Assembly: GCA_037043015.1 (NCBI GenBank)
Contig: CM073325.1
Location: forward strand, 7,791,001 to 7,855,000
DNA: 64,000 bases
Source of the DNA: Bryum argenteum
Taxonomy: Eukaryota > Streptophyta > Bryopsida > Bryales > Bryaceae
Direction of reading: 5' to 3'
Below are positions 7,201-37,027 of the stretch, in pieces. The notes under the pieces were generated by a model. That model worked only from the letters and a program-made list of their open reading frames with translations, was not told the DNA's origin and ran no database searches. Made by a program: the position numbers and the translations under genes. Position 1 is the stretch's first letter, and each line of letters begins with the position of its first letter.

Positions 7201-8600
7201 GTTATAATTCTTTCCCTTTTCAGTCACGAGAGTTTTGGTAGCAAGTATTATCGTTAAATTCCTAGAAGGCAAAGTTCCACGACCTCGTCTGGTGGCTTAA
7301 GAAGGTGTTGTGCATTGTTCGTTTTCAGGGATTGGCCTGTGGAGAAGCTGAAAGATGTGAAAGTAGCAGATGCCCTGAAGCATCCCAACTGGAGCATGGG
7401 TCGTAAAATTACAGTCGACTCTGCTACATTGATGAACAAGGTTAGTGTCCTTCAATCATTCCTCCATACCACTATGCATGTACTTTCAGCAGCTAAGTCT
7501 CTTCCTAATGTGACGAGTGCTTACGCGGGCAGATTTTTTTATTTCTGTTGACTGAAACAAATTCTGAACTTGTTGCGTTTATCAGGGTTTGGAAGTGATT
7601 GAGGCTCACTACTTGTTCGGGGCGGACTATGATGACATTGACATTGTTGTTCATCCACAATCTATCATCCATTCTATGGTGGAAACCCAGGTATATCTTA
7701 AACCCTGCACAAAGCAAACATTGCTATAAGAGCTTTGAGAAACACTTATAAAGAATGTCTCTACGAGCTGTTAAAAATGTATCGAACCTGTACATTTTCA
7801 TTAGAAACGTTGCCAAGTTTTACTATTTCGGCTATGTAATTTCTAACTGTACGTTTTTTCTTTTCAGGACTCGTCCGTGATTGCTCAACTAGGGTGGCCA
7901 GACATGCGCCTCCCCATCCTGTACACCATGTCGTGGCCAGAGCGTGTCTACTGCTCCGAGAAGACATGGCCTCGTCTGGACTTCTTTAAGTAAGCTCAAT
8001 CTCTGGAGTGTCTTAGCAACAACAGTTTAGACGCCTCATCGCTTTTCCACGCTCGTCACTTTCTGAAATATTCATTGTTTCATCATTTCACGAGTTTTCT
8101 TTTTTATTTTATTTCGATTGCTTTAGATGAGTGTACTGTTCTAACTAGATCCAATTCGTTTACAGAATGGGCAACTTGACGTTCATGAAGCCAGATCATG
8201 CAAAATATCCTTCAATGGGTCTCTCGTTCAGTGCTGGTCGAGCTGGTGGGACGATGACGGGTGTGTTGAGTGCCGCAAATGAGAAGGCTGTCGAACTCTT
8301 CCTTGAAGAGAGGTATTGTTGCTATGCCGACTTTCAGTAGTTGATTCAATCACATCAAAGTTCTCTCTTATTGTAGAAGCAACTCGCCATGCATCGAGCT
8401 GACAGCAATCGTTTGACATGGAATGCAGGATCGGGTACTTGGACATAGTGAAGGTGATAGAGATGACGTGCGCAAAGCACAGGGAAGAGTTGGTAGAGAA
8501 GCCGACGTTGGAGGACATTCTTCACTACGATGGCTGGGCACGCGATTATGCCGCCCAATTGATCGACTCAGGCACGTTCCGACCAGTTGTGGCTGTTTGA
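4225..8600 (+). CDS. DXR: 1-deoxy-D-xylulose 5-phosphate reductoisomerase (plastid), 12 exons
   Basis: This enzyme converts DXP to MEP using NADPH and a divalent metal, the first committed step of plastid isoprenoid synthesis. Inferred exons are 4225-4287, 4498-4559, 4927-5102, 5829-5915, 6084-6272, 6736-6885, 7117-7184, 7329-7440, 7586-7690, 7868-7989, 8166-8312 and 8429-8600. All junctions keep frame with GT-AG; the donor at 4560 (GTCCGC) is weak. Visible landmarks are a Ser/Thr/Ala-rich transit peptide, the plant-specific SAWPGRAV, the nucleotide-binding [18 protein letters not shown], the metal and substrate site [12 protein letters not shown], the catalytic-loop region [25 protein letters not shown] and the C-terminal domain ending RPVVAV. 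It matches seed-plant DXR along its full length with no broken motif. The N-terminal two exons are the least certain part; an alternative start is the ATG at 4514. Its last codons and 3' region are copied inside the array downstream. Confidence 0.95.
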
Positions 8601-8775
8601 GGAGGAACTCACTCATACTAAAGGACTCAATACACCAGTGGGTCCGAAGCTGCCTGTAGATTATGGAGCCACTTCAAATGGTGGCGCTGTGTAGATTTAG
8701 ATTCAAACGTGACATTCGTTGACAAGATGAGAATTTCTTTGAGTCACCCATCACACGTAATGGTTGGTGGAAGTT
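8589..8775 (+). repeat. DXR 3' end: source-like copy of a repeated block
   Basis: The stretch from the last four DXR codons through the stop and about 175 bp of 3' sequence recurs at 12643-12830, 15690-15870 and 20818-21060, each time downstream of an ISG12-like gene. Shared landmarks are TGTGGCTGTTTGAGGAG, AAAGGACT, AGTGGGTCCGA and GCTGCCTGTAGA. This copy is joined to a real gene, so it is the likely origin. Confidence 0.8.
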
Positions 8776-10660
8776 TTGTTTTTGGCCAACCTGTCAAGGA
8801 AAGGTATATGTACCATCGCAAGTATGTACGTTGTGGATGTTTTCGCTACTTCATAGAAATAGTGAATATTGGATTGAAGGTAGAAAGTGAGACTTGTAGT
8901 GGGTGGTGCTTAAAATCACAACTTTCTAGGGATATATCTTTCTTGGAATCTGGGCTGGATTTCTGGATCCCAATCAGCCGCGAGCTAAGTGCCTACTACA
9001 ACTTCACATGCACCCTGATAGTACTGAAGGGAAGATACCACAATCTGAAGCATGCATGAGAAGCCCACATGCTGTGAGTATGCCGAAGCGGCGAATGTAG
9101 AGAAACGACATTCCGATTAAAAAAAGTTATGGTTCTTCAAAGTTGCTGAATATCTTTTGTAGTGAAAAAGTTATGGCTCTTCACTAAGAATGACTCATCA
9201 ACTACGGAAAGAGTAGATGTCAAGAAATACCTCATATGCCCAATTTGGACAGAATTTGAGTAAGTTATGGTCATCTGAAAATACCGACGACTGGTAAGGT
9301 AGAGTGTCTTAAAAGCGCCACAGGACCCAAGAGCGATCTGTCCTCGTTTGTAGATTGTGAAGATACAGATGTACCTCATTTGTATATAACGCATTTGGGT
9401 CAAATCTTACTTAGCACTTTGGAATTTTGTATAAAATTCACAAATGCGAATTACATGTTGCAAATTTTTGCAATCCTCCCGAAAACCTATTTCGAATGTG
9501 GTCATAATTTTATTTTGAATTTACTAGTGCTAAAAATAGGTCAGATCTCTTAAGGTGGCGCTTTTAGGACACTCTACCTTAGTCTTGTTTAGTGACCTAT
9601 CCAATCTATAGGTACAATCTAGATTGGTAGTTTTGTCTAGTGAAGTATCTAATCTATGGGTACAATCTAGCTCGACTCGGGCTAAAATGTATCTTATAAA
9701 AATCATGCAATTGTTTATTATAGAGAAAATGGTGTTCTACGGCTGTCATTCCACTTACTTTTCCCATGCATGATAATTACTTCCATTATCAATTTCATTA
9801 GAGATTGGGAAATCTGGTGTTTAAGCCATTTTTTAGCACTCTTCCTATCTCTTAAGCCAATTTTTTGTTTATTTATTTTATTTATTTTATTGAGGTTAGT
9901 GAGAATTTTTAACTTCATGGTCGAGAAAGGACAAGCTTGCAACTGGGTGAATAAGGTTGGAGGTAGCCTCGATCAATGTAATCCTTAATTGATTGAGTCA
10001 GTCATAGAAGGACAAAGCTACTATTAGCTTACGTAGAAGAATTATAAACAATCTTGATTACAGGTATTTTAAATCCTAAAGTCGGAAAAAGCCCAAAAGG
10101 TCCTAAAGTTGGAAAGAGCCTAAAAGGGGTAGTGTGGGATCTGGATAGCCTGTGATTACCAAGAAGTTGAAACCTTTGGCACGTTGTAGAGTTCTCTATA
10201 CACTTTGGAAAAGTCATTTCATATTCCAAAATTCCTCACACTTTAGGAGAATGATGCTAACGGTCAAAGTTGAAATCATTATTTGATATGTGCCCAAAAA
10301 CTATCCAAACCGCGGTATATGCTCATCTACCTTAAAAATCTGCTCAATCAAGTAGATTGCAGAGACTTCAAAACTTCACCAAAAACAGTAGTTTTTTTTT
10401 TTTTTTTTTTTTTTTGTATATGTAGATGGGGTTTTTAGACATGATCTCATAGTTTGGATTTCCAATTCAACTGTTCTTCACATGTCTTTCATATAAATTG
10501 TATGAGAGTAAAAATTGCATAGACATGTTTTTAACTCACATGAGACCACGAATTTGAAGAGTCTTATTTCAAACTGTTTACAATTGAGATTGGTTTTTTT
10601 GGCCCTCAAAAAACTACATAATTACCCATTCTCCAACAAGAAAAATACTTCTTTCCAAGT
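8776..10660. other. Gene-free region between DXR and the first array gene
   Basis: There is no gene. It holds foldback-element sequence near 9160-9690 (interrupted by the TA-flanked MITE) and, at about 9940-10080, a block that recurs near 26010-26140, 29355-29400 and 34930-34990 (landmarks GTTGGAGGTAGCC and GGACAAAGCTACT). That block marks an array-unit boundary. A run of 24 T occupies 10392-10415. Confidence 0.55.
9295..9581. mobile_element. 283-bp TA-flanked MITE, copy 1
   Basis: The element is 9297-9579 between TA dinucleotides. Its inverted ends read AGGTAGAGTGTC(T/C)TAAAAGC and the reverse complement GCTTTTAGGACACTCTACCT. A second complete copy of the same length, in opposite orientation, is at 28731-29017, and a copy with an eroded left end is at 24851-25134. 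TA duplication and small size suggest a Tc1/mariner-type non-autonomous element. It sits inside a foldback element. Confidence 0.8.
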
Positions 10661-10875
10661 TTGAACATTATGATTTCATAATTGGCAAGGAATTTGAATT
10701 TAAGATTTGACATGCACATGCACATGCACATACAAGTTTAGTAAAAGATCTTACAATCACATATTAACTAAAAAATAAATCAAAATTTCCACCTTGCAGT
10801 GAAAGGGGGCACTATAGAGGGTTTTTTGCAATTTTGAGGCCTTCCTACTTTAGGAGTTAAATGTAAAGACGTAGG
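10660..10875. repeat. Right end of a TTAA-family element upstream of array copy 1
   Basis: This block (ATTGGCAAGGAATTTGAA, AGATTTGACATGCACATG, CACCTTGCAGTGAAAG, GAGGCCTTCCTACTTTAG) recurs at 14155-14345, 18440-18605 and, more diverged, 53930-54125. Its last part resembles the right end of the TTAA element at 30059-30972. It includes CACATG tandem hexamers. The matching left end is not visible here. Confidence 0.55.
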
Positions 10876-11070
10876 CCCCATTTATCAACTCCAAATTGCT
10901 CCGTCGTGTTAGATTCCCAACCCCAAGCCCCCAACCCGCCCAAGCGCCGGGTCACCTCCCTAACAAAGCTCTTGAGCAGCTGCTATTCGGCTTGTTAGAA
11001 AGTGCGACCCAGTTTTGATAACGAGTTGTCTCCGCGTAGCATCCATCCTCCTGAGGCTCGATCGATATCG

Positions 11071-12117
11071 ATGTCGACTCTTTATCAGGGTCTCCAATTG
11101 TTTGGAAGTTTTGCCGTTGCTCGCTCTAAATATGATGGCAAGAGCAGCAGCATCGCGCCTGTTGTCGACAAGTCGTTCTCAGTGAACGCAAAGTGCACCA
11201 CCGTGATTTTTGTCGATTCCACTGGTTACGCAGTCCCAATTTATGTCGGTTCCACTGGCACTGTGGTCTTACCAGCGATACCGAAGGGCTACAGGGCTGT
11301 TGTGGACAGTGCTGCGGATGCGGAACCTGCGGAACTCGACGGCAAGGGCATCGACACTGATGCAAATGCGTTGCCAGGAACACTAATCGGCACTGCTGTT
11401 GTTGTGGACAATGATGCTAGTGAGGAACGGGCGATACCCAAGGGCACTACCGATACTGATGCAGAAGTAGGGATACCGAACGGCACGGCTGTTGTTGCTC
11501 AGGACAGTGCTGCTACTCCGGAACGACCTATACCTGACCTCTGTTGTTGTGCTGCTAACGCGGAAACAGCGACACTCGTCGACGGCACCACTGTGGTTAT
11601 GGTCAGTGCTGCTGATGCGGAACAAGCAATTCGCGACGGCACCGCTGTAGTTGTGGATTGTGATTCTAATGAAGTGCACCGCACCACAGCAAGTTATGGA
11701 GGCAAAGCAGTTGTAGTCATTTTGGTTGCTGGGGGCGCGGTAGTCGGGTGTGTGGCACTACCTGCTGCCGGCCTGGCTGCATTGAGCGCTGCCGGCTTCA
11801 CCAGCATCGGCCCCTCCGCTGGCAGTATCGCAGCAGCATGGATGAGCTCTATTGCGGCTAGTAACGGCGTAGGAGTGACAGCAGGGTCACTGTACGCTCT
11901 GCTTCAATCGACTGCCATGAAGGGCGGAGGGTTGCTGCTTAAAGCTGCTTCGACGTCCGTCGGTGCAGCCATAGGTGGTGGAGTTGCTTGGCTGAGCTCC
12001 AAGCTCCGTCGAACAACAACGTCCAGTAGCGAAGAACGTGATGACGTCGAAGAACAGAGTCAGGAACGGTGTATGATTTGCGGGTTACCTGTAGCAGCGG
12101 CGACTTCCCGTGCTTGA
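11071..12117 (+). CDS. ISG12/IFI6-like array gene, copy 1 (longest, subfamily A)
   Basis: The protein is 348 residues from the ATG at 11071. That start is favoured because the leader before it (AAAGTGCGACCCAGTTTTGAT, then CTCGATCGAT) is shared by the other copies. Residues ~20-205 are degenerate ~19-residue repeats built on VVD(S/N)xxxxAxP. Residues ~212-300 are Gly/Ala-rich and hydrophobic and contain GFTSIGPSAGS, AAAWMSSIAAS and AGSLYALLQSTA. This order matches the animal ISG12/IFI6/IFI27 domain, whose members are small membrane proteins of mitochondria, ER or nuclear envelope. The tail is basic and Ser/Thr-rich, then ERCMICGLPV with one CxxC. No signal peptide is clear and no intron is needed. 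Function in a plant is unknown; membrane insertion is inferred from composition. Confidence 0.75.
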   Translation: MSTLYQGLQLFGSFAVARSKYDGKSSSIAPVVDKSFSVNAKCTTVIFVDSTGYAVPIYVGSTGTVVLPAIPKGYRAVVDSAADAEPAELDGKGIDTDANALPGTLIGTAVVVDNDASEERAIPKGTTDTDAEVGIPNGTAVVAQDSAATPERPIPDLCCCAANAETATLVDGTTVVMVSAADAEQAIRDGTAVVVDCDSNEVHRTTASYGGKAVVVILVAGGAVVGCVALPAAGLAALSAAGFTSIGPSAGSIAAAWMSSIAASNGVGVTAGSLYALLQSTAMKGGGLLLKAASTSVGAAIGGGVAWLSSKLRRTTTSSSEERDDVEEQSQERCMICGLPVAAATSRA

Positions 12118-12642: not shown

Positions 12643-12830
12643 TGTGGCTGTTTGAGGAGAGGCTCACTCAGATCAAAGGACTTCAAACAACAGTGGGTCC
12701 GAGGCTGCCTGTAGAATATAAAGCTTCTTTTGTGGTGCTGAGTGGATTAGATGCAACTGGGACAATCGTTGAGAAGATGAGATTTATGTTGTTACTCATC
12801 ACACTTAAATGTTGATGGCAATGAACATCA
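12643..12830 (+). repeat. Diverged copy of the DXR 3' end after array copy 1
   Basis: It matches 8589-8775 through TGTGGCTGTTTGAGGAG, a CTCACTCA/AAAGGACT stretch, CAGTGGGTCCGA and GCTGCCTGTAGA, and continues to the TCATCACAC region. No DXR exon sequence precedes it beyond the last few codons, so it is a co-duplicated 3' segment and not a DXR pseudogene. Confidence 0.8.
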
Positions 12831-14602: not shown

Positions 14603-15187
14603 ATGGCGACTCCTGACCGCTGTCGTTGTGCTGCTAACGCGACACTTAACGGCACCCCTGTGGTTATGGTCAATGCTGCTGATGCGGAACAAGCAATTCG
14701 CGACGGCACCGCTGTAGTTGTAGATGGTGATGCTAATGAAGTGCACCGCACCACAGCAAGTTATGGAGGCAAAGCAGCAGTAGCCATTTTGGTTGCTGGG
14801 GGCGCGGTAGTCGGGTGTGTGGCACTACCTGCTGCCGGCCTGGCTGCATTGAGCGCTGCCGGCTTCACCAGCATCGGCCCCTCCGCTGGCAGTATCGCAG
14901 CAGCATGGATGAGCTCTATTGCGGCTAGTAACGGCGTAGGAGTGACAGCAGGGTCGCTGTACGCTCTGCTTCAATCGACTGCCATGACTGGCGGAGGGTG
15001 GCTGCTTGGAACTGCTTCGACGACGTCCGTCGGTGCAGCCACAGGTGGTGGACTTGCTTGGCTGAGCTCCAAGCTCCGTCGAACAACAACGTCTAGTAGC
15101 GAAGGCCGTGATGCCGTCGAAGAACAGAGTCAGGAACGGTGCATGATTTGCGGGTTACCTGTAACAGCGGCGACTTCCCGTGCTTGA
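14603..15187 (+). CDS. ISG12/IFI6-like array gene, copy 2 (subfamily A)
   Basis: The protein has 194 residues. From residue ~12 it is nearly identical to copy 1, but it lacks about 155 residues of the N-terminal repeat region, keeping only about two repeats (VVMVNAADAEQAIRDGTA and VVVDGDANEVHRTT). The ISG12-like core (GGAVVGCVALPAAG, GFTSIGPSAGS, AAAWMSSIAAS, AGSLYALLQSTA, TGGGWLL) and the C-terminal RCMICGLPV are intact. Start and leader correspond to copy 1. Near identity extends into both flanks, so this is a recent duplication followed by repeat contraction here or expansion in copy 1. Confidence 0.75.
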   Translation: MATPDRCRCAANATLNGTPVVMVNAADAEQAIRDGTAVVVDGDANEVHRTTASYGGKAAVAILVAGGAVVGCVALPAAGLAALSAAGFTSIGPSAGSIAAAWMSSIAASNGVGVTAGSLYALLQSTAMTGGGWLLGTASTTSVGAATGGGLAWLSSKLRRTTTSSSEGRDAVEEQSQERCMICGLPVTAATSRA

Positions 15188-15689: not shown

Positions 15690-15870
15690 CTGTGGCTGTT
15701 TGAGGAGAAGCTCACTCGATCATATCAAAGGACTTGAAACAACAGTGGGTCCGAGGCTGCCTGTAGAATATGAAGCTTCTTTTGTGGTGCTGAGGCAAAT
15801 GGGACAATCGTTGAGAAGATGAGATTTATGTTGTTACTCATCACACTTAAATGTTGATGACAAAGAATAT
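15690..15870 (+). repeat. Diverged copy of the DXR 3' end after array copy 2
   Basis: It carries the same landmarks as 8589-8775 and 12643-12830 (TGTGGCTGTTTGAGGAGA, CAGTGGGTCCGAGGCTGCC, TTGAGAAGATGAGATTTATG). It is closer to the copy-1 version than to the DXR version, consistent with duplication of a whole array unit. Confidence 0.8.
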
Positions 15871-16560: not shown

Positions 16561-16645
16561 AATTAATTATGAGTATTGAGCTTGCTTGAAAGTGCAAACA
16601 GGTTTCGGCATCACTTGGCATCCATCTTCCTGAAGTTCGATAACG

Positions 16646-17095
16646 ATGGCGAATCGTGCCGCAGCAAATAGTGGATCGGAAGCAGTCTTGGTGGGGGTTG
16701 CTGCAGGAGCGGCAGTCGGGGTTTTGGTACTAAATACTGTCGGCCTGGCTGTATTGAGCGTTGCCGGCTTCACCAGCATCGGCCCTGCCGCTGGCAACGC
16801 GGCAGCAGCATAGATGAGTAACATCGCGTCAACTTGCGGCGTGTGGCTGTACGCTCTGTTCAATCGACTGCCATAACTGGTGGAGGGTGGCTGCTTGGAA
16901 CTCCTTCGACGTTGTCCGTTGGTGCAGGCGCAGGTGGTGGATCAACTGGATTTGCCAAGTGGTTGATGAGTTCCAAGCTCCGTCGAAAAACAACGTCTAG
17001 GAGCAAATGCTGTGACCGCGGCTGTGACGTCGAAGAAACGAGTCAGGATCGGTGTATGTTTTGCGGGTCACTTGTAGCAGCTGCGACCTTCCGTA
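16646..17095 (+). pseudogene. ISG12/IFI6-like array pseudogene, copy 3
   Basis: It starts normally (MANRAAANSGSEAV...) with almost no N-terminal repeats and keeps GFTSIGPAAGN. The conserved Trp codon of AAAWMS is then TAG. Just downstream, bases are lost around TGCGGCGTGTGGCTG and the frame shifts. The remaining core (STAITGGGWLLGTPS), basic tail and RCMFCGSLV are readable in another frame to about 17090. The reading frame is therefore broken twice. It is subfamily A by its Cys motif but lacks the DXR-derived 3' segment at the expected place. Confidence 0.75.
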
Positions 17096-19284: not shown

Positions 19285-20097
19285 ATGGCGAAGTCTGTGC
19301 CAGGATCTGTTGCCAGCGCCGTTCTTTGCGCAAATTGTGCTGCCAAGAGCAGCAGCACCGCGCTTGTTGTCGGCAAGGCGTTACCAGTGATAGCAAACGG
19401 CCGCACCTTGCTTGTTGTCGATTCCAGTGGTAAGGCGGTACCAACGAGCATGAAAGGATCTGCTGCTGCTGTGGACAGTGCTGCTGAGACAGCCAAACCA
19501 GCGTTACTCGAGGGCACCGCTTACGTTGTGGACAGTGACGGTTACGCAGTACCAGTGATCCTAAACGGCACTACTGATGTGGACAGTGATGGTAATGAGA
19601 TACCAGTGATTTTTGACGGCACCGCCCCTGCAGTGGACAGTGATGCTAATGCACGGCACGCGAAAGACGCGAAAGTAGCGAAAGTAGTCTTGATGGGGCT
19701 TACTGGGGTTGCGGTTGTCGGGTGTCTGTTACTTAATCCTGTCGGCGGTAGTGCACTGAGTTGTGCCGGCTTAACGAGCCTTGGCCCAGCCGCTGGCAGC
19801 CCCGCAGCATTGTTGATGAGCAGCATCGCGACTTCTTGCGGCGGAGGTGTGAAGGCAGGGTCGCTATACTCTCTGGCTCAATCGACTGCTATGACTGGTG
19901 GAGGGGGGCTACTTCCGACAGTTTTTAGTAGCTTCGTAGCTGGTTTATGTTCCAAGTGGTTGACTTCCAAGCTCATTCCACCGAGAAAGTCTTCTAGCAA
20001 AGGCTATGATCCCGTTTGTACCGACGAAGAAAAGAGTCAGGTACGGTGTTTCGCTTGCGGGACTCCTTTGGCACAGGCGACCACCCATCCCTGTTAG
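19285..20097 (+). CDS. ISG12/IFI6-like array gene, copy 4 (subfamily A)
   Basis: The protein has 270 residues, starting MAKSVPGSVAS at the ATG matched to the other copies. Residues ~30-135 hold the clearest ~19-residue repeats, for example GTAYVVDSDGYAVPVILNG. The core (GVAVVGCLLLNPVGG, GLTSLGPAAGS, LLMSSIATSCGGGVKAGS, YSLAQSTAMTGGG) fits the ISG12 pattern but is more diverged: Thr of GFTS is kept while Phe becomes Leu. The tail is basic, then RCFACGTPLAQ with CxxC. The leader with AAAGCGCGACCCAGTTTTGAT is shared with copies 1 and 2. Function is unknown; a membrane-inserted Gly-rich protein is the likely type. Confidence 0.7.
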   Translation: MAKSVPGSVASAVLCANCAAKSSSTALVVGKALPVIANGRTLLVVDSSGKAVPTSMKGSAAAVDSAAETAKPALLEGTAYVVDSDGYAVPVILNGTTDVDSDGNEIPVIFDGTAPAVDSDANARHAKDAKVAKVVLMGLTGVAVVGCLLLNPVGGSALSCAGLTSLGPAAGSPAALLMSSIATSCGGGVKAGSLYSLAQSTAMTGGGGLLPTVFSSFVAGLCSKWLTSKLIPPRKSSSKGYDPVCTDEEKSQVRCFACGTPLAQATTHPC

Positions 20098-21060: not shown

Positions 21061-22556
21061 TGGAATGACACGGAGGTTACTTATGGGGAGGTCACATACT
21101 GGATTATGGTATAGTTTCTGCGTGTATAATTGTAGTGTTTGGTGTCGTTAGTTGTTCATAGGTAGTCAAATGCCAAGATTGGAAGTAAATCAAGGATTTA
21201 GCCTTATAAGGTACATGTTATGGACTTGAAAACAACATGCATTGGAGTATTGGACAAAGCAAAGTGGAATTCTTTGCCAATGTTTTTGCTACTTATTCCC
21301 ATAAGGCCCTTGATGCAAATTTTTATATAATAAATAATGACCTTTTTCTACTTATGGCCTTGAAAGACTCAATCTAAATACAGACTCTATAGAAGATCCA
21401 ACCTTAGGATCTTTAGATTTAACTTCAACCTTTCTAATCGCATGGCAAATTGGCGATTGATTTTTCTTCATTTGTGAGGTCATCGTGATAAAGGTTGGAT
21501 ATTTTATTTTTCCTCTGAAAAAGTCCAAAAGTCAATTTTTTGGCTTTTAGGGGTTGATACAAAATGAAAATAGTGGATCTACATGTATATGATTTTGGAT
21601 AAGGGTTTGGGAAATAATTTCATCCTTGGTGGAAAACCCCTGAACGTCCTAGACTCCTAGCCTATTTTTAACCAAAAGTCACATTTTCAAAGAAAGTGCC
21701 ATAAATGAAAATGAGGATAAGTAATTTAGATCTCAACGATACAAACTTATGAAAGACTCGTTATAGGTCTCATGGACTAAAATTTGAGTCACGAGGCATT
21801 GAGGCCTCATAGATTGCAAGATGATAACGTATTAGTAATTTAGTACCCAAAATAGGCTACCAAATTTTATCATTTTACTGTAGAGTAAAAATTCTATCAA
21901 TAGATGCTACTCAAATGAAAAAACCTCCAATTAGAAAGTTGTCCATCTTCATATTAATATTACCCTTGTACCAAAAACAAAGTATCAAAAAAATTCTTGG
22001 CTCAAATAATAGCCTTGCAATGCTGAAAGTTGCCAAAATTCTACAAGAGAAAAATGGTCCAAAACTAGACCCATTGCAATCAAATGTATGCCTTATCTAG
22101 AAAGCATCTTCGATTAAGATTCCTATTACTTGGACTAGAGTCTAAATGGAATCTCTCAAAAAATAAAGTCATGATCTGACAGTGGATGAAGGAAATATAG
22201 CTCCTCAAAAATCATCAATTTTTTCATTTTTTTCATTGTGGAAACATTGTTGCAAAGCTAACACGAAAAGTATTTGAATCAAAAACCTTCCAACAAAAAA
22301 TTTGTTAGATTTCATCTTAAAATCATGATCATTATGTAAAAAGATTTCATCATAAAATATTTTTGGTTCCACATGATTGGCTTGCAATGGAAAAACATGC
22401 CTAATGTTTGAAAGCCCAAATTGCATGTCAGTAATTCATATTTTATTGTATGGGGATGCAAATTTCACCACACAAACTAAACTTGCTTTGGAACACAATC
22501 CAAGTGATTTTGTCAACAAACAAAGTTTGGATGAAGAAACCATAACACATATTTCG
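21061..22556. other. Gene-free region with a degenerate TTAA-family element
   Basis: There is no gene. From about 21640 (CCTGAACGTCCTAGACTCC) to 22556 the sequence is colinear with the TTAA-type element at 23142-24112 but diverged and without intact termini. Shared phrases are AGATCTCAACGATACAAAC, ATAGATTGCAAGATCATAA-like and CATCTTCATATTAATATTACC. 21061-21640 holds nothing I can name. Confidence 0.5.
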
Positions 22557-22929
22557 TTATAATGGGAATATTCAATGATTTGAGAAAATACACCTTAGCT
22601 CGAGTTGAAATAAATGTACCCACAAATTGGGTACTTTAGTGAAATTGGACAAGATAACCACTCATTGGTATTTTTAAATGGCCATATCTTACTCAAATTA
22701 TGTTCATAATAGGCATATGAGGTGTTTATGAACATCTACAAAACTAGTAGATGTCAAAAAACACCTCATATGTCCAATAGGACAAAATTTGAGTAAGTTA
22801 TGAGCATTGAAAATACTAACGATTGGTTGTTTTGTTTAAACTCAGTGAAGTACCCAATCTCTGGGTACATTCAGCTCAACTCAAACTCAACTTGTCATTG
22901 AATTGACACCTTGAATATTCCCATTATAA
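22557..22929. mobile_element. 373-bp foldback MITE with perfect 19-bp ends
   Basis: TTATAATGGGAATATTCAA at 22557-22575 is the exact reverse complement of 22911-22929. Long internal arms also pair, including ATATGAGGTGTTTATGA and AACACCTCATATG. Related but diverged sequence occurs around 9160-9690 and 39830-40620. Target duplication is not clear. Confidence 0.7.
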
Positions 22930-23137
22930 AAAACCACCTATTTTATGACTCTTCAGAATTTATGCTCTACATCCAAAATGTAGATAAATGACATTCGGGA
23001 CATATAAGGGCTAATATCCACTTATTCCCATATCCAACCCATTTTACTTGAAACTATTTCCGCACTTCCCTTACTTTATACTAGGTATAGAGAATTTATT
23101 ATAATTTTCATTGGCTTTCAAACCCGTGGTTTAACCC

Positions 23138-24116
23138 TTAACCCCTAAACGTCCTTGGGGTATTTTTAGCCAAAAACTCATTTTTTAAAAAAGTGATATA
23201 GATGAAAATAAAGATAAGCTATTCAGATCTCAACCGTACAAACTTGTAATAGACTTGTAATAGATCATGTGGACCAAAACTTGACTCATGGGACCTCATA
23301 GATTGCGAGATCATAACATATTAGTGCGCAAAACAGGATACAAAATATCATCATTTCCACTTTGAAGTGAAAATACTACCAACATGAAATTTGCAATCAA
23401 AAAATCAGCAACTAAAAAGTTGTTCATCTTCATCTCAAAGACACTCTTGTACCAAAAAAATTCATCAAAAAAAAATCTTGGCTCAAATAGTAGCCTTGTA
23501 GTCGTGAAAACTGCCAAAAATTTTACAAAGGAAAAATAGTCCAAAACTAGACCCCTCGCACTCAAATTCATGCCTTTTCTTCAATATATCCTCGATTGGG
23601 TCAAGATTTCTACCACTAAAAATAGACTATAATTGGAATCCATCCCAAAAAATAAAATCAAAATCTAACGGTGGATGAAGGAGATCTAGCTCTTCAAAAT
23701 CATCCATTTTTTCACTTTTTTCATCGTAGAAACATCATTGCAAAGCCAACACCAAAGTTATTTAGATCAAAAAACTTCCAACTACAAAGTTGTTGGGATG
23801 CATCTAAATATCAAACCTATGAAAAAAAAATCATGAAAAACTATTTTAGATTTCACATAATTGGCATGCAATGGTAAAACATGCCAAATGTTTGAAAACC
23901 CAAAAACGAAAGCTGCCTTCACTAAAATCCATGCCATTTATTCATACTTTATTTTACGAGTCTGAAATTTTTACCACATAAACTAGACTTGATTTGTGAC
24001 CTAACCCAAGTGATTTCGTCAAAAACGGAGTTTGGATGAAGAAGTTATGGCTCTTCAAAGTTTCTGCCCTTCATCCAAAATGTCGTTTTTCGACACTAGG
24101 GACGTTTAGGGGTTAA
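23138..24116. mobile_element. TTAA-flanked piggyBac-like element, 971 bp
   Basis: The element 23142-24112 lies between TTAA at 23138-23141 and 24113-24116. The ends are CCCCTAAACGTCC and GGACGTTTAGGGG, a perfect 13-bp inverted repeat apart from neighbouring bases. The interior carries phrases common to the family (AGATCTCAACCGTACAAAC, GGTGGATGAAGGAGAT, CATCCAAAATGTCG). No transposase is encoded. Confidence 0.75.
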
Positions 24117-24720
24117 GCGGGCCGAATGTCGAAAATCGACATTTTGGATGACAGAAACTTTGGAGAGCCATAACTTCTTCATCCGGACTCCGTTTTGGAC
24201 GAAATCACTTGGGTTGGGTCCCAAATCAAGTCTAGTTCATGTCATAAAAATCTCAGACCCATACAATGAAGTATGAATTAATGGCATGCATTTCAGTGAC
24301 AGCAGCCTAGTTTTAGACATTTTTTCCTTTGTAAAATTTAGGGCAGTTTTCACCATTGCAAGGCCATAATTTGCACAAAGAAATTTTTCTCATGGTTTTT
24401 TTTTGTTCAAGGATGCTACTGAGATGAAGGTGAACAACATTCTAATTGGTGACTTTTTCATTGCAATAAGTCTAATGGTAGCATTTTCACTTTAAAGTGA
24501 AAATGATGAAATTATGTGATCATTTTTGAGTATTAATACATTATGATCTCGCAATCTATGAAGCCTCATGACTCAAAATTTGACCCACATGATGTTCAAT
24601 ATGTCTACGACAAGATTGTACGGTTGAGATCTGGATAACACACTTTTACCTCCACCTATGACAATGCTTTTGAGGATGTGTTCATTTTACTACAAATGAG
24701 TCAAACCATTTAGGGGTTAA
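24117..24720. mobile_element. Inverted, end-deleted TTAA-family copy joined head-to-head
   Basis: This follows directly from the TTAA closing the previous element. Read backwards from TTAA at 24717-24720 it is the same family (AGATCTCAACCGTACAATC, CATGAGGCTTCATAGATTG). Its inner end reads GCGGGCCGAATGTCG where an intact copy (near 47000) has the CCCCTAAAC terminus before the same GCCGAATGTCG. The result is a large imperfect palindrome centred near 24117, with AAATGTCG / CGACATTT and TTCATCC / GGATGA arms. Confidence 0.6.
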
Positions 24721-24850
24721 TGAATCAACCAACTAATGGGCTATTTCCATCCACCGATAATGAACTAGCCGTCGGTTTTTCTCCATCACTATTTTGGATT
24801 ACTTTGCCAATGTATTTGCAACACTCCAGAGAATACAAATATTGGGTTAT

Positions 24851-25134
24851 GGTAGGCAGTCCTAAAAGCGCTCTGTACCCAAAAGCAATCTGTACCTCAT
24901 TTGTAGATTGTGAAAATACAGATGTACCTCATTTGTATATAACGCATTTGGGTCAAATCTTACTTAGCACTTTGGAATCTTGTATAAAATTCACAAATAC
25001 GAATTACATGTTGCAAATTTTTGCAATCTTCCCAAAAACCTATTTCAAATGTGGTCATAATTTTATTTTGAATTTACTAGTGCTAAAAATAGGTCAGATC
25101 TCTTAAGGTGGCGCTTTTAGGACACTCTACCTTA
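24851..25134. mobile_element. 283-bp TA-flanked MITE, copy 2 (left end eroded)
   Basis: The right end GCTTTTAGGACACTCTACCT-TA and the interior are nearly identical to the 9297-9579 copy, in the same orientation. The left end is mutated (GGTAGGCAGTCCTAAAAGCG). The high interior similarity points to fairly recent activity. Confidence 0.75.
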
Positions 25135-26693
25135 GATGCAGGTGGTTTTCAGAGGTTTTCATATTCTCGGTTACATCATGGCTTTTCAGTGGTTTGCACA
25201 CGTGTTTCTAACAATTTGTTATTTATATCAACATAGAACCAAAGAAGGCAAACTTTTTCAAATATTATAAGTATACTTCTCCACCCTCTCATTGGATTTC
25301 ATCCGTGATTGTCGGCCAAATTGATTAGTCCAGTACGGAGGCCTTAGTGAGTTTTTCGAGACGGAGAACTGGTGGTAAACTTTTGAGTATTTTAATCTCA
25401 ATATTGAAATCCAAGTAAGAGGTGCAGTTAAGTTTGATGAGATGTCACGAAGGCATCGATCGGCACTAAGTTAGTGAATTTACACCGAAGTCCATACCTT
25501 AATTTATGTTATGTGAGACAACAAAAATCTCGACAGTGAACTCTTAAGAAGATTCTTCTTTTGGTATTTGAGGTGAGAAAGAATTTTGGACTCTGTATGG
25601 TATCATAGACAAACCTAAAACCACCAGCACCCTGGCCGTATCAACCTATAGGTCTCCCCATAACCGCACCTAGCCTGAACTAGCATTGTCAGAACACTCA
25701 ATTCAAACTGACCAATCAAAACAATAAAAAAGCTGGTGGTTTTGGGTCGAATCATGAATGGAAATTTGTACGAGCTAGGTGTGACAATGGGAAAGTCTAA
25801 AGATTACTTTTGGGTCACCAAGTACTTTTGCCTTTGAAAATTTATATTTATTTATGTAATGGGAGTTAAATTTTGAAAAAATTTGCATCCTACGAGAAAG
25901 ATTCTTTCGTACATGGAAAAATATACCCCAAAAATAACCATTCTATAAAAACCTCAAAAAGCTTAAGTTGGTGGTTTTAGGGCATTCGACCTTAGTCGAA
26001 ATTGGACGAGCTTCCAAGTGGGCGAAGTTGGAGGTAGCCTCGATTGGTGTGAAGACTGTATTGATGGATTGAGTCAGCCGCGAAAGGACAAAGCTACTGT
26101 TCGCTTTTGTACAAGGATTGTAAACAATATTGATCACGAGTAACTCACGCCTTAAACGTCCATGGGGTGTGAAACGGGCAGATTAAATTTAGACTTTTTT
26201 TTTGAAAACATGTCCATACTACTACTCAAGTTCAAAAGTGACTCGAGTCAAAAAGTTTACAAGTTTTATAAGGGCATTCTCTAAAAACTTCAAAAAAATC
26301 CAAACAATTTCTTGTAATTTTAATAAAAAAACAAAAAAATTGAAATCTTTCAAATTAATTTGAGATTTGAGAATTTTTTAATTTTTTTTTTCTCAAAATT
26401 CTCAAACTCATAAAGGCATTGCAATGCTCAAAATTAAAACCTTTCAAACAAACATTGGGTCTTAAGATCTTGCAAATAAAAAACATTCAACCAACAACCT
26501 TTGGTATAGTAATTAAATTAAAATAGTATGATATCTCACGGATGAAAATTCAAAAGAAGTAATAAAAATTGGTTCACACCCATAGGAGCACCGCAGCTAG
26601 AAGCCAGTCCATGTCTGAAATCTGGGAATTTCAATGTTTGACGTAACTTAATAGCTACCACAACATGCTTTATCGATTGCTGTTACGGTACGC
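25135..26693. other. Gene-free array spacer
   Basis: There is no gene. It holds an array-flank block (AGTACGGAGGCCT near 25330, GTTGGAGGTAGCCTCGAT near 26025, GGACAAAGCTACTGTTCGC near 26090), a TIR-like remnant GGTGGTTTTAGGGCATTCGACCTTA-type sequence near 25970-25995 related to the 283-bp MITE, and an AT-rich stretch 26160-26560. The 25.3-25.5 kb part corresponds to the 3' flanks of copies 1 and 2. Confidence 0.5.
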
Positions 26694-26945: not shown

Positions 26946-27491
26946 ATGGCGGATCTTATGCTTGGACTCGTTGCGGGTGCCGTTGCTTCCACAGCATCTG
27001 CGGTCAAGAGCGGCTCAGCAATTGTTATCGACAAAGCGGTGCCAGTAGTTGTACACGGCGCCGGGGCTGTTGCCCACGCGGTACCAGTAGTAGTGAGTGG
27101 CACCGGGGCTGTTATAAACTATACTGTCCATGCCGTTCCAGCGATGGTTAGCGGTCCCACGGCTAAAGCAGTGATTGGCGTTGCTGGGGGCGCTGTGGTT
27201 GGATATGTGGCGGTACCAGGTGCCGCTCTCATGGGCTTGAACCTGATGGGCTTCACCAGCATCGGCCCTGCTGCGGGCAGCTTGGCAGCGACGTGGATGA
27301 GCAGTATCGCGGCCAGCAGCGGCGGTGGAGTGGTTGCAGGGTCGCTCTACTCTGGCCTTCAATCGGCTGCCATGGGTGGCGGATACCTCCTTGGAACGAC
27401 CAAGTTGTTGGCCGCCGGTGCCGGTGCCGCAGGTCCAGTTGCTTGGCTCGGTTCCAAGGCCTACAATATGACTTCGTTATCGAAATTGTAA
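26946..27491 (+). CDS. ISG12/IFI6-like array gene, copy 5 (subfamily B)
   Basis: The protein has 181 residues, MADLMLGLVAG..., with the ATG chosen by alignment with copies 6 and 7 and the conserved leader GAGTGCGAACCAGGTTTAAT. Upstream in-frame ATGs exist but lie outside the shared coding start. Residues ~20-75 are three degenerate repeats (AIVIDKAVPVVVHGAG, AVAHAVPVVVSGTGAV, NYTVHAVPAMVSG). The core is the best ISG12 match of the window: GGAVVGYVAVPGAA, MGFTSIGPAAGSLAA, WMSSIAASSGGGVVAGSL, SGLQSAAMGGG. It ends shortly after and lacks the CxxC tail of subfamily A. The composition predicts two to three Gly-rich membrane segments. Function in plants is unknown. Confidence 0.8.
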   Translation: MADLMLGLVAGAVASTASAVKSGSAIVIDKAVPVVVHGAGAVAHAVPVVVSGTGAVINYTVHAVPAMVSGPTAKAVIGVAGGAVVGYVAVPGAALMGLNLMGFTSIGPAAGSLAATWMSSIAASSGGGVVAGSLYSGLQSAAMGGGYLLGTTKLLAAGAGAAGPVAWLGSKAYNMTSLSKL

Positions 27492-28730: not shown

Positions 28731-29017
28731 TAAGGTAGAGTGTCCTAAAAGCGCCACCTTAAGAGATCTGACCTATTTTTAGCACTAGTAAATTCAAAAT
28801 AAAATTATGACCACATTCGAAATAGGTTTTTGGGAGGATTGCAAAAATTTGCAACATGTAATTCGCATTTGTGAATTTTATACAAAATTCCAAAGTGCTA
28901 AGTAAGATTTGACCCAAATGCGTTATATACAAATGAGGTACATATGTATCTTCACAATCTACAAATGAGGCCAGATCGCTTTTGGGTCCTGTGGCGCTTT
29001 TAGGACACTCTACCTTA
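28731..29017. mobile_element. 283-bp TA-flanked MITE, copy 3 (inverted)
   Basis: The element is 28733-29015 between TA at 28731-28732 and 29016-29017, exactly as long as copy 1. The paralogous array flank near 34590-34610 reads CTGGTGGTAAACTTTTTAAG without insertion, giving an empty site that supports a TA duplication. Confidence 0.85.
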
Positions 29018-31794: not shown

Positions 31795-31960
31795 CTTTCA
31801 TTCTTGCCAATGTAGTGCGCTCTTCTCCTACCGTTGTGCAATTTCTATGTGAAATTGTATATTGTACGAAGTACATGCAGTATACATCTCGTAACGTGAG
31901 CCGCCGCTTGGTTGATGTGACGTGCTATTACCATGGTTTATATTACTATAGACTCACTTA
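31795..31960 (+). promoter_or_regulatory. Shared upstream block, array copy 6
   Basis: It is homologous to 35325-35470 and 33940-34050: GCCAATGTAGTGCGCTCTTC, then GTGAGCCGCCGCTTGGT. It begins about 330 bp before the ATG and has no TTAA-element insertion. It is a candidate common promoter of subfamily B. The leader CCAGAAAGTGCAAACCAG follows at 32047. Confidence 0.4.
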
Positions 31961-32128
31961 CTGTACATGTAACTCACAGTGATGGTTTACATCTGTTGAG
32001 CAGCTTGAGCTTTGTGATGTTTCGAGCTCGCTGTTATTTGGCTCTCCAGAAAGTGCAAACCAGTTCTGTTCGCGAATCGGCTTCGCATGGCTAGATTCCA
32101 TCTTCCTAGAGCTCGATCGATCGGGCCG

Positions 32129-32626
32129 ATGGAGGATCGTGTGTGGGATTTCTTTGCGAACGCCACTGCCCAAGCGGCAAATGCATTCAAGAACGCCACC
32201 GCAGCAGTAGTCGATTATACTGAGAATACAGCGGTACCAGCGATCCGGAACGCCACCGCAGCAGTAGTCAATTATATTGAGAATACAGCGGTACCATCGA
32301 TCCGAAACGCCACTGCAAGTAGTGGAGCCAGAGAAGTCATTATGGTAGCTGGGTGCGCGATGGTCGGAGTTGTGGCACTGTCTTGTCTTGGCATGTTTGT
32401 ATTACAGTGCTGCATGGGCTTCAGGAGCATTGGCCCTCGCCCTGGCAGCTATGCATCATCGTGGATGAGCGGTATTGCGATTAGTAGCGGCAGAGTGGTT
32501 GCAGGGTCGCTGTTCTCTTTGATTCAAGCGGCTACCATGAGTGGAGGGTTCTTGCTTCGATCGCCCAAGTTGTTGGCTCTCGGTGCAATTGGCGGTGGAC
32601 TCATTTGGGTTAGTCTCAAATATTGA
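32129..32626 (+). CDS. ISG12/IFI6-like array gene, copy 6 (subfamily B)
   Basis: The protein has 165 residues from MEDRVWDFFANATAQ; an in-frame ATG at 32087 would add 14 residues but lies in the leader shared by the family. Residues ~28-66 hold two almost exact 19-residue repeats (NATAAVVDYTENTAVPAIR, then NATAAVVNYIENTAVPSIR), encoded by a 57-bp tandem repeat. The core is VGVVALSCLGMFVLQ, MGFRSIGPRPGSYAS, WMSGIAISSGRVVAGSL, SLIQAATMSGGFLL, then a short end without CxxC. Compared with copy 5, Thr of GFTS is Arg and the Gly triplet SGGG is SGR, so this member is diverging but uninterrupted. Confidence 0.72.
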   Translation: MEDRVWDFFANATAQAANAFKNATAAVVDYTENTAVPAIRNATAAVVNYIENTAVPSIRNATASSGAREVIMVAGCAMVGVVALSCLGMFVLQCCMGFRSIGPRPGSYASSWMSGIAISSGRVVAGSLFSLIQAATMSGGFLLRSPKLLALGAIGGGLIWVSLKY

Positions 32627-33939
32627 GACGATAATGTCTGTAAATATGTAGTGCATCACTTGTACTTACTCGACTACAGAGGGTGCATGTGAGCATTCTG
32701 ATTCGTAGGAATCGGCGGTAGAATTGCTATTTAGCATCTATAGAGGGGTGGAGTACATACCCAGTGAAACTGATTTGGACACAAGTTTGTGGATATTGAT
32801 TTTCCAAGCTTTTCTCTGAGATACGTAATGGTTAAGAATGTTGACTGTTGATACATGATCATACATAAGTTATTTGTGGAACTTCAAATGGTTGTATGGT
32901 TGTGTCAAAGTGATGACATGCGGCACTTTGAAACAGACTTCTCATTATGATGAGAGGACCGAAAGATGTTTGAATTTCTCTAATAAGATGTTACCAAAAT
33001 AGCAAGTCACTCCGACTCTCCACTAAGAATAAAATACCTACTTGTTTGCCACCTTCTTAAAAAAAAATCTCGTAGGAAATCTCTCCTAGGACTGAATCTG
33101 CCTGGCTACATAGAGCGAGGATGCTTAAAGATGAACATAACTTGCGAATGTTGCATGGGGAAGTATTGTGTACCTCTAAGTGAATGTTACTAGAGCTCCA
33201 TCATGGGATCAGCTCCAGTGAAGACCACTCGACTATATCGTTGCATGTGAAAACCATCTGGTAGCCTCAAGAGTGCCGAGAGGACAGTGACTCATCGAAG
33301 CAGAGCTCATCAGCATCCGTACTTGATTTGTCCGATTCGGGAGCTTGGTGGTAAACATTTGAAGTTTCTGTACTTAATCTCGACAATGAATTCAAGATCC
33401 AATGAAAGTACGAACGGTCGCCAAAGCATCACCAGCAACAGTGAAACTACAGGACAGGTCAACACTGACAAAGTCCGTTCCGCAAGATTACACAAATCCC
33501 CACACTGTACGCCTCATAAATATTTTTTATTTTTTGGAAATGAATATTGAACTCTGAATGAAGAACGGACTGCTTGCAAATGGGAGAAGTTGGAGGTAAC
33601 TCAGTAACAGACTCAATTAGTAGTACATAAGGATTGTTCAATATTTTAGTACCTAAGGATTGTTCAAAGTCTGTTGCAGGTTCCATAATGGTCCACAAGA
33701 CTCGATTAGCCAGGAGGTACTTAAGAGCTCTGGGTGCACCATTTGTGGAACACCTACACATTGAAATTCAGAAAATCATAATGAATTTTAGAAGAGTCCA
33801 AAACTGAGCACTCAAATTGGTCCAATCTTCTCTTACTTTGCCCATACATACAAATTGCTCACACAAATAACTTCTTCACAGATTTGTCATATTGAATTTT
33901 GAGCCATGACGGAGCAATCCACCTTAGCAACTATGACCT
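32627..33939. other. 3' flank of copy 6 and array spacer
   Basis: There is no gene. It contains the subfamily-B 3' block near 33080 (CTAGGACTGAATCTGCCTGG), the TGGTAGCCTCAAGAGTGCCG block near 33260 and the GGTGGTAAACATTTGAAG block near 33350, in the same order as after copy 5. Short open frames (33287-33550 +, 33459-33761 -) are not conserved between units. Confidence 0.5.
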
Positions 33940-34260
33940 CTTCTTTTACCATTGTGTATACTTTTTGCGTGGGTTGTACATAGTATGCATGTTGTAAGGT
34001 AAGGCACAGCATGTTTGCTGAAATGTGCTTCCTTTGTGGTTAATAATATCTAGGATTGACTTCCTGTGTTCATAGTGTTGATTCTTATTGTTGGATGAGC
34101 TTCAAGCTTGAATTTTTCCATACAACTCGCGAGAAAGTGCAAACCAGATTTGATGGGCGACCGATCGATCGCATTGTAGGTGTTCTTAGGAAGTCTCCTC
34201 TAGGACTGAATCAGCCTGGCTACATAGCTGAACTACTACATAAACTTTTTGAGTGTCTTT
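33940..34260 (+). pseudogene. Bodyless remnant of an ISG12-like array unit
   Basis: The shared upstream block (ACCATTGTGTATACTTTTTGC, GTTGTAAGGTAAGGC) is followed by the family leader GAGAAAGTGCAAACCAGATTTGAT and CCGATCGATCGCATTG. Where the ATG and coding body should come, the sequence passes directly into the subfamily-B 3' block (TCCTCTAGGACTGAATCAGCCTGGCT-type, near 34198-34223). The whole coding region is missing. Deletion between leader and 3' flank is the simplest reading. Confidence 0.6.
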
Positions 34261-35324
34261 TTCCTGTGTCTTCTGCTTCAAAACGTCGAGCTGTTCTCAC
34301 TTTAAGAACTGGAGTGTCCGTCGAAGGAAAAGGAGTACCTTTGATGGTTGTTGACGAGTGAAACGCAAATTGTGCTTGTGCCGAATGTTGTTCTGAAATG
34401 CTCCAGAGAAGTTGAGTTTGTGCTTCAATTGGTTTCAACAACGCTCCAACATGGGTTCCCTAACTTTTCGCTGCAAGTGAATTCGTGAACTACATGGTAG
34501 CCTCAACAGTGCCGGAAGGACAGAGACTGATCACAGCAGATATGAATGTGCTCCCATCACCCCTATTTCGATTTGTCCGATCAGGAGACCTGGTGGTAAA
34601 CTTTTTAAGTTTTAAATCTCAGCAACGAATTCGAGGTCCTTCACTTCAATTACTTAACACAATAATTTATTTTAATTTAATAAGTTAAAAATTTTCAAGG
34701 TCCTAAACAGATTTTAAGTACAGGTTTAATAAACGGTCCCCAAGGCATCGTCGATAAGAGTGATTATACAGACAGTCACTGACAACTTAGTCCGTTCCTT
34801 AAGAAATGATACACAAATCTCCACACCGTACGCTTCAGCAATCAATCTTAGTTTAATTTGTGTGAGGATTGAGGAAGAACGGATTTCAAACTCTGATTGA
34901 AAAAAGGACGAGTTCCTAGCACTGCTTGCAAGTGAGCGAAGTTGGAGGCAGCCTGGTGTACGACTAAATACACATACTCACTCAATCATAGTAAGGGCTC
35001 TTCAATCCCTTAAAATGGCAATATTTGAAGTGCCATAATGACATACAAAAAGTGGGCAGTTTGTTGCAAAGTGACAATTTGATGACATGTTTGCCATCAC
35101 GGAGCACCCATTGCTTCTGTGTAATATCATTTTCTCCATTTACTATATTGCTAAATCCCTAAAAGTGCCATCTTTGTTGAAGAATTGAGACCTGTTACTG
35201 GGAAAGGACGAAGCTACCAGTACTCTAAGAGGTCTACAACCAATCTTGAATATGAGTTATGTTACCACTCAGGAAAGCTCAGAAGTGTAACTACTGCAAG
35301 CAGTGTGGTTTTTAAATACAAGTC
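34261..35324. other. Array spacer before copy 7
   Basis: There is no gene. It repeats the 3'-flank order of copies 5 and 6 (TGGTAGCCTCAACAGTGCCG near 34497, GGAGACCTGGTGGTAAAC near 34583, GTTGGAGGCAGCCTGGTG near 34940). An element with CTCTTCAATCC...GAAGAATTGAGA-type inverted ends, ~34999-35189, is inserted in the last block. Confidence 0.45.
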
Positions 35325-35470
35325 CTTTCTGAATGCTTGCCAATATAGTGCCCTCTTCTCCTACTGTTATGAAGTTTCTGTGTGGAGTTGTATATTGTAT
35401 GCAGTACGCATTTTGTAAGGTGAGCCGCCGCTTGGTAAATTTGACGGTTTATATTACCATTTATTGACCT
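35325..35470 (+). promoter_or_regulatory. Shared upstream block, array copy 7
   Basis: It contains GAATGCTTGCCAATATAGTG, GCATTTTGTAAGGTGAG and CCGCCGCTTGGT as upstream of copy 6. It is followed by the TTTGTGATGTTTTGAGCTCG and AGATGTGCAAACCAG leader. Conservation in a pseudogene flank reflects shared descent and is no proof of function. Confidence 0.35.
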
Positions 35471-35616
35471 ACTGTATTTGTTTACAGTGTTGGTTGTATC
35501 TGTTGAGCTTTGTGATGTTTTGAGCTCGCTGTAATCGGCTTTCTAGATGTGCAAACCAGTTCTGATCGCGAATCTGCTTTGCATAGCTTCCATCTTCCTG
35601 GAGCTTGATCGGTGCA

Positions 35617-36123
35617 ATGGCGGATCGGGTGCTGGATTTTATCGCAAGCGCCATTGCTCACACAACAAATGCTGTCAAGAGCGGCACCGCAATTGTTGTC
35701 GACAGGGCGGTACCAGCGCTACTAATCGGCACCGCAGCAGTTGTCAATTATACTGCTAACACAGCGGTACCAGCGATCCGAAACGGCATTGCAAGTCATG
35801 CTCTAGGTTCAGGAGCGAGAGAACTCATTACGGCAGCTGGATACGCGGTAGTCGGAGTTGTGGCAGTATCTTTTGTCGGCGTCGTTGCATTGCAATGCAT
35901 GGGCTTCACGAGCGCCGGCCCTGCCGCTGGCAGCTTTGCGGCATAGTGGATGAGCAGTATTGCGATTAATAGGGGCAGAGTGGTTGCAGGGTCGCTGTTC
36001 TCTCTTATTCAGGCTGCTGCCATATATGGGTGGAGGGTTCTTGATTCGATCGCCGAAGTTGTTGGCTGTCGGTGCAATTGCTGGTGGACTCGTTTGGGTC
36101 AGCTTCAATGTGTGTAGATATGA
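35617..36123 (+). pseudogene. ISG12/IFI6-like array pseudogene, copy 7 (subfamily B)
   Basis: It opens normally (MADRVLDFIASAIAHTTNAV), carries repeats such as GTAAVVNYTANTAVPAIRN, and the core CMGFTSAGPAAGSFAA. A TAG then replaces the codon before the conserved WMSS. The frame stays open through WMSSIAINRGRVVAGSLFSL, and about 60 bp later CCATATATGGGTGG has four extra bases relative to copy 6, shifting the frame; GGGFLIRSPKLLAVGAIAGG continues in another frame. It is the closest relative of copy 6 by alignment. A truncated 110-residue product ending inside the core is possible. Confidence 0.75.
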
Positions 36124-37027
36124 AGAAATTGTAACAATCGGTGCATCTCTTGCACCTTTTCGACTGAAGAGAGTGCATATGAGCACTCTTAGTTGTAGAA
36201 ATCGGTGGTAGAATTGCTTAACTTGCTATGTAGCATTACAAAGGGGTCGTACGTGCACATACCCAGAATGACTAATTTGAACTGATTAGCAATCATATTT
36301 CCTGAATAATGTGTTTCAATCGTCCATCATTAACCTTGATTGTATCTTCACCTCGAAAAAAATTCTCAACCTTGGCCCTTCTCATGTTTCTATACTTGAA
36401 TTTTATTTTTCAGCCACAGCGCTCGCGAAAATTTGATCACGAAATGAAGGATGGACTAAATGATGTGTGAATCACGATGTTTCCATAATAGCAGGTCACA
36501 TCAATTTTGCACTCAGAAAAGATCTCTACTTAGTTGCCACCTTGTTAAAAATGTTTTCTCTTAGGGAGTTTCCTCTAGGACTGAATCCGCCTAAACTACT
36601 ACAAAAACTTGCTGAATGTTTGAGAAGCTGATTTCCTGCTTCAATTGGTGTCGACAACGCCAAACGGCCCCATAAGACGCGCATACGAGAGCGGTCCTTT
36701 TGATGTGTTAATGGACAGATCAGGCTTCCGGGGAGGAAGTGGTGGCGGAGTCGGAGGTTTCTCCGGCCATGGTGGTAATGCAGGACCAGGAGGATTTTCT
36801 GTCCAATTGAGTATATTGAAATTGCGTGCCCCGCTATTCTTTGCTCGCAACAGAAGTTTCCTCTGAATTGTTTTGTATCTGCAGAGTCCAACGTCCAGCG
36901 ATCATAAATCACAAATACTCGCAAGACAGTGGACATTCTCTACAGGGCCAACTTGCCCGTGTTTCATTAATGTGGAATTTTACTACGAACTTTGTTGAAA
37001 GAAGAGTAGAGTGATCGATCGGTTTGC
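36124..37027. other. End of the array and spacer
   Basis: The subfamily-B 3' block appears diverged at about 36560-36600 (CTCTAGGACTGAATCCGCC) and repeat similarity stops near 36655, which I take as the right edge of the array. A short Gly-rich (+) or Pro-rich (-) open stretch at 36700-36800 could be an exon of the neighbouring minus-strand gene, but no splice link is convincing. Confidence 0.45.

Follow-up and report, generated by a model that had tools for sequence, protein, structure and literature searches.

IFI27 and IFI6 are well-known mammalian interferon-induced genes, and in the sources cited here the working of their domain is still argued. ISG12a is described in mitochondria, the nuclear membrane or the endoplasmic reticulum (ER), depending on cell type, and as promoting apoptosis (PMC6484314); ISG12 is placed at the nuclear envelope and in the cytoplasm, with an 80-residue ISG12 motif defining the family (PMC7575815); and IFI6 is presented as an ER-resident protein that restricts orthoflaviviruses, possibly by blocking ER remodelling, in an account that detected no binding to the viral proteins tested and calls the membrane mechanism unclear (PMC13185562). 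Outside vertebrates, the Ifi-6-16 domain is listed in a fungal secretome paper (PMC10051545), and Littoporin LitP-4, an actinoporin-like protein of a marine snail, is reported to carry an IFI6/IFI27 domain (PMC12197748). The locus analysed here, in a 64,000-nucleotide stretch of moss DNA (the window), is best explained as a local birth-and-death cluster of true Ifi-6-16/ISG12 genes. Plants, to our knowledge, have no interferon; the interferon-stimulated functional name should therefore not be carried over to the moss genes, and an interferon-less plant with a diversified cluster offers a test of basic membrane function free of interferon signalling.

The moss copies resemble the vertebrate members (ISG12/IFI27/IFI27L1/IFI27L2 and IFI6, together FAM14) in having a domain of about 80 residues with the core blocks in identical order; their solved relative among these is 2LOQ, and the human FAM14 genes are also clustered locally. 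The vertebrate rows P0004, P0006 and P0020, however, have by eye neither the N-terminal repeats nor the CxxC tails of the moss copies, and P0009, P0043 and P0038, among the fungal and algal members, likewise differ in showing by eye no CxxC tail or 19-aa repeat. Fungal Ifi-6-16 proteins (Blastomyces, Emmonsia and Microsporum) and a protein of the green alga Tetrabaena contain the same domain and fall on the same side of the family tree as the moss copies, but four named fungal rows and two others form a clade of their own (97/93), apart from them. LitP-4 is like the moss copies in combining the domain with added regions, but in LitP-4 the domain is fused to a pore-forming-type protein, whereas Pfam shows no such fusion in the moss copies. 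The moss cluster represents a known family, one already recorded outside animals, with added tails; it is not a novel protein type.

A first-pass annotation of the window had proposed a tandem array of seven such genes, and tblastn with the cores of four copies indeed returned seven (E ≤ 0.1), every one on the + strand; the copy number stands, but only five of the seven are intact genes, c3 and c7 being disrupted (Table 1). The copies (c1 to c7) lie in a single orientation in one block spanning approximately 11071-36108, in keeping with the local tandem expansion that had been put forward. The outer limits given to the array at that stage, 8589 and 36655, had to be abandoned, as they track duplicated flanking DNA and not genes: 8588-8770 is repeated at 12643-12818 and 15691-15859, and 32987-33103 at 36476-36592. 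Each of the five open copies has a coding region uninterrupted in one frame from an ATG preceded by shared leader DNA, and this leader can be aligned in all seven copies, which supports both the start codons and common descent; the leader of the open copies may hold an intron. Copy c2 aligns to residues 155-348 of c1 at 87%, the remainder of the c1 N-terminal region being missing from c2. Both c3 and c7 are best read as broken copies; in c3 the N-terminal region is short and a CxxC is legible in the last piece.

Table 1 Ifi-6-16/ISG12 copies at the moss locus and their mapped parts, in window coordinates
Feature	Position	Strand	Length (aa)	PF06140 (bits)	State and parts
c0	~59 kb left of window	-	98	57.9	little beyond the domain
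c1 5' leader	10975..11070 (left limit approximate)	+			aligns just upstream of the ATG in 7/7 copies
c1	11071..12117	+	348	53.3 (E 2.7e-14)	open Ifi-6-16 gene, coding region in single frame; long N-terminal region, ISG12 domain, C-terminal CxxC
c2	14603..15187	+	194	48.7	open; C-terminal CxxC
c3	~16646..17094	+			best read as broken; in-frame stop within core, then frameshift
c4	19285..20097	+	270	41.3	open; N-terminal CxxC, repeat region, ISG12 domain, C-terminal CxxC
c4 repeat region	19348..19662	+			residues 22-126; short beta strands modelled with low to middling confidence
c5	26946..27491	+	181	47.1	open, without Cys; marginal repeat-like N-terminal region, then ISG12 domain
c6	32129..32626	+	165	32.9	open; two near-identical 19-aa N-terminal repeats, then ISG12 domain
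c7	~35617..36108	+			best read as broken; in-frame TAG and frameshift; closest copy c6

Membership in the Ifi-6-16 family, which had been suggested from the letters of the core, was confirmed by profile search: all five open copies passed PF06140 at 32.9-53.3 bits (curated Pfam cut-off, 29.1 bits), while the submitted piece of c7 reached 16.2 bits, under the cut-off, and the submitted piece of c3 gave no match to PF06140. Against PDB sequences, the core profile had 2LOQ (human IFI27L1; E 5.1e-12) as its sole match at E ≤ 1, and c5 alone matched 2LOQ at E 4.4e-10, followed by the unrelated-looking EutS at E 0.24. The order of the core blocks is conserved across kingdoms in a 53-row alignment (one of two used for structure work, each of 53 rows), with five invariant columns and seven nearly so, one of these being the start Met. 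The core motifs listed initially hold in most copies and needed loosening in the rest: GFTSxGP is intact in five of seven (GLTS in c4, GFRS in c6), WMS in five of seven (LMS in c4, and a stop at that place in c3) and VxAGSL in six of seven, c3 being out of frame there. An NCBIfam search with four of the proteins returned nothing significant. We regard it as almost certain that the array genes belong to the Ifi-6-16/ISG12 (FAM14) family.

Searches of the genome (258.8 Mb in 25 contigs; counts are lower bounds) with PF06140, reading through stops, yielded seven places, all above the cut-off and all on contig C5, namely six window copies (c7 included, c3 absent) and c0; protein searches with c4, c6 and c0 (E ≤ 0.01) added c3 only. 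The genome contains at least eight loci of the family; those found lie within about 100 kb of one contig, a stretch compact enough for one or two deletions to take out every copy. That the host is a plant was borne out, and narrowed to a moss, by a flanking PsbP-like protein (54607-55398), whose top named match, in a search that scored about 8,000 length-limited candidates, is from Ceratodon purpureus (75%, full length). In a tree of 29 rows (the query and 28 of 120 among the matches listed, of 650 matched), this protein clusters with Ceratodon and three other rows (94/96), and Sphagnum with one other row comes next (87/86). The left neighbour of the array is a DXR gene, with a PF08436 exon at 7258-7548. 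Contamination was rejected because the array sits inside a 22 Mb contig, with plant genes on both sides and leader DNA common to the copies. The duplicated segment at 8588-8770 starts at the apparent DXR 3' end, and its counterparts downstream of c1 and c2 are 73-77% alike; the array looks as though it grew beside DXR and took DXR tail DNA along. On the far side of the window, an HSP20 small heat-shock exon (PF00011, E 3.3e-20) lies at 56241-56510 on the - strand.

Beyond the shared domain, the copies differ in their tails. Repeat scoring of the N-terminal regions gave 1.98 at lag 19 in c6, higher than all 200 shuffles (largest 1.30); in c4 the best lags were 18 and 19, lag 18 scoring 0.16, above the 95% level of 0.02 but below the largest shuffle at 0.26; and in c5 lag 29 was marginal (0.84 versus a 95% shuffle level of 0.81). 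A fixed-period repeat in the N-terminal region of c1 was rejected, no lag rising above the shuffles. N-terminal repeats of about 19 aa are clear in c6 and weaker in c4, and they, like the CxxC tails of c1-c4, are unusual for the family; the c4 N-terminal region had no match among PDB sequences at E ≤ 1. A C-terminal CxxC occurs in c1, c2, c4, the shorter protein P0010 and the last piece of c3, and CxxC occurs at both ends in c4, P0002 and P0011; it is absent from either end of c5 and c6, and none was seen by eye in the c7 pieces. Our guess is that paired CxxC tails may form a putative zinc knuckle; the pairing is only partly kept across copies.

AlphaFold placed four core helices in c5 (residues 71-100, 113-125, 134-149 and 152-175) in a model that is weak as a whole (mean pLDDT 60.1, pTM 0.35), with 10-residue blocks at pLDDT 78-87 across residues 91-140. 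The c4 model (mean pLDDT 55.2, pTM 0.31) combines core helices with short strands in the repeats, at residues 40-43, 79-82, 88-91, 97-99 and 105-107. In each of the five open copies, hydropathy rises above 1.6 close to the first core helix. Foldseek with the weak c5 model found no PDB chain.

The suggestion that the family evolves fast is upheld by pairwise dN/dS values of 0.47-1.08 and by the two broken copies among the seven in the window. Four of ten pairs, each including c5, have dN < dS at bootstrap P < 0.01, and the remaining six give P values of 0.047 to 0.586; constraint is clear only in comparisons with c5, and some copies may be decaying, since those six pairs do not reject dN = dS at P < 0.01. 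The closest pair, c1 and c2, encodes proteins 87% identical, separated by 8 synonymous and 23 non-synonymous changes (dN/dS 1.08); an earlier, cruder calculation had put the ratio at 0.79 overall and, within the core, at 2.06, from very few changes.

Relatives of individual copies were found on public contigs. The family tree, built from six moss proteins together with 49 of the 86 found by searching (the 37 omitted being 33 vertebrate-named and four others), pairs c0 with P0013 (100/99), c4 with P0010 (100/100), c5 with P0001 (99/97) and c6 with P0014 (100/99). Identities are 95% over 132 aa for P0001 and c5, 78% over 161 and 66% over 273 for P0010 and P0002 against c4, and 80% over 69 for P0014 and c6; the first piece of c3 is best matched by P0011 (69% over 52) and its last piece by P0002 (64%), with the caveat that some of these relatives (P0001, P0002, P0010, P0011, P0013 and P0014) are short or partly read in another frame. 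Identities of 78-95% in the c4, c5 and c6 pairs suggest, as far as sequence comparison goes, that the relatives come from other species; if they come from another species, the subclasses predate that split. In P0001, the close relative of c5, the end of the protein is read from a different frame of the same DNA, at about 27350-27470, which may mean that the gene is broken in some individuals or that the contig contains an error.

At a wider scale, two protein searches with the family, each scoring about 8,000 candidates limited in length to 0.55-1.75 times the query, returned 9 of 7999 and then 85 of 7993 scored candidates, and the named rows came from vertebrates, fungi and one green alga (Tetrabaena). 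Under midpoint rooting, 12 named vertebrate rows and five others split from the rest (99/99); the other side comprises 38 rows (moss, fungi, Tetrabaena and others) and is largely unresolved over 102 columns, and the moss copies do not form a single clade in the tree. This distribution is consistent with a family that is patchily present, or left unannotated, in plants. A prokaryotic or viral origin was rejected because scans of a bacterial and archaeal genome collection (five-row alignment; 404 pattern matches) and of a viral collection (six-row alignment; 53 pattern matches) produced no confirmed relative. Nothing informative came from a plasmid search with DNA flanking the array, which gave no match, or from scans for tRNAs and bacterial promoters. 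In the open-access literature we found no report of a plant expansion of the Ifi-6-16 family, which is weak evidence of novelty.

What the moss proteins do is approached here by analogy. The animal relatives, in the accounts cited above, have an intracellular membrane in common, so the moss proteins would most likely insert into an organelle membrane; those same accounts vary in compartment and effect, and so function is not safely transferable to the moss. In the mechanism that we propose, the Gly/Ala-rich helices of each protein would insert into an intracellular membrane, and during stress or infection the inserted protein would act on the shape or permeability of that membrane or on its partner proteins. 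What triggers the protein, or which partner it takes, would depend on the fast-evolving tails outside the domain (N-terminal repeats, plus CxxC tails in c1-c4). At slightly less than even odds, we tentatively read the moss proteins as membrane effectors in stress or defence. To the joint reading of family membership, a membrane-effector role in stress or defence and the broad layout described above, we assign a probability of about 0.5. A broader view would make ISG12-type proteins ancient eukaryotic membrane effectors for defence or controlled cell death, older than interferon, and would see in the moss locus a defence cluster that is diversifying rapidly, with the conserved membrane domain acting as effector and the repeats and CxxC tails serving in plant-specific sensing or docking; we consider this very unlikely as a whole.

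Several alternatives bear on these readings. Gly, Ala and Ser abound in the core, and hydrophobic proteins of such composition could resemble the ISG12 profile by chance, an explanation whose probability we consider negligible because of the behaviour of a control profile built from 15 members only (12 vertebrate and 3 fungal, with no moss row). On the window, this profile reported eight segments of 19.3-80.8 bits, all within the seven copies, against 3.3 bits for the next-best segment and at most 9.3 bits in 50 dinucleotide-preserving shuffles of the window; on the five open proteins it gave 52.1-81.1 bits, against at most 5.8 bits among 1000 residue-shuffled versions, and it reported none of the five proteins when reversed. 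A relaxed core pattern, widened once the copies were known, matched seven times in the window and not at all in 50 shuffles. With these controls clean and the PDB match being IFI27L1, the outcome feared at the outset, a failing profile or matches only to generic Gly/Ala-rich proteins, did not materialize, and generic Gly/Ala richness was rejected. Granted true membership, the moss might owe the gene to transfer from a fungal, algal or other eukaryotic donor, with multiplication afterwards. This is favoured by the lack of any land-plant name among the named rows of the 9 and 85 matches, despite Ceratodon, Sphagnum and Marchantia proteins in the database, and by the presence there of fungal members and one from Tetrabaena. 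We nevertheless judge transfer quite unlikely: GC at third codon positions is 0.47-0.56 in the copies versus 0.52 in the flanking moss gene, and the tree, though largely unresolved there, does not attach the moss copies to fungi or Tetrabaena. Small genes are often missing from annotation, and each search scored about 8,000 length-limited candidates.

The cluster could also be a relic in neutral decay, most of its copies becoming pseudogenes with no important role, as might be argued from the two broken copies of seven, the c1/c2 ratio of 1.08 (8 versus 23 changes), the five further pairs that do not reject dN = dS at P < 0.01 and the other-frame end of P0001. Yet the four pairs that include c5 do reject dN = dS, the domain is retained in five open copies, and c0, c4, c5 and c6 have relatives elsewhere; we rate neutral decay as improbable, about on a par with transfer. 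Somewhat better placed, though still unlikely, is a role in abiotic stress instead of defence, in which the proteins would protect or remodel membranes during drying or freezing and the repeats would bind a membrane or surface. Drying tolerance is common among mosses, the c4 repeat region is modelled with short beta strands, and the c7 N-terminal region weakly matches a grass antifreeze beta-roll profile; that match is, however, non-significant (E 0.12) and came from one of seven queries, and we know of no membrane-protecting role in drying or freezing for the animal members.

Repeats and probable mobile elements surround the copies. Remains of transposons probably account for a dispersed and partly inverted repeat family at 21635-24632, in the gap between c4 and c5, and at 39196-39787 and 45615-47024, to the right of the array. 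The stretch at 48060-48534, likely not a gene, repeats with a 98-bp offset (92% alike); several of its frames are open, and it encodes a basic repeat rich in Arg and Lys. An open reading frame at 51655-52110 has a strong DUF7869 match (E 3.4e-36) and presumably encodes a transposon-related protein. A 287-bp element with 27-bp terminal inverted repeats lies at 9295-9581, 24848-25135 and 28731-29017 (- strand), its window copies 93-98% alike; genome-wide it has 526 candidate places, of which 40 were scored, all 40 being full-length at 97-100% identity, and by these features it looks like a miniature inverted-repeat transposon that has spread recently.
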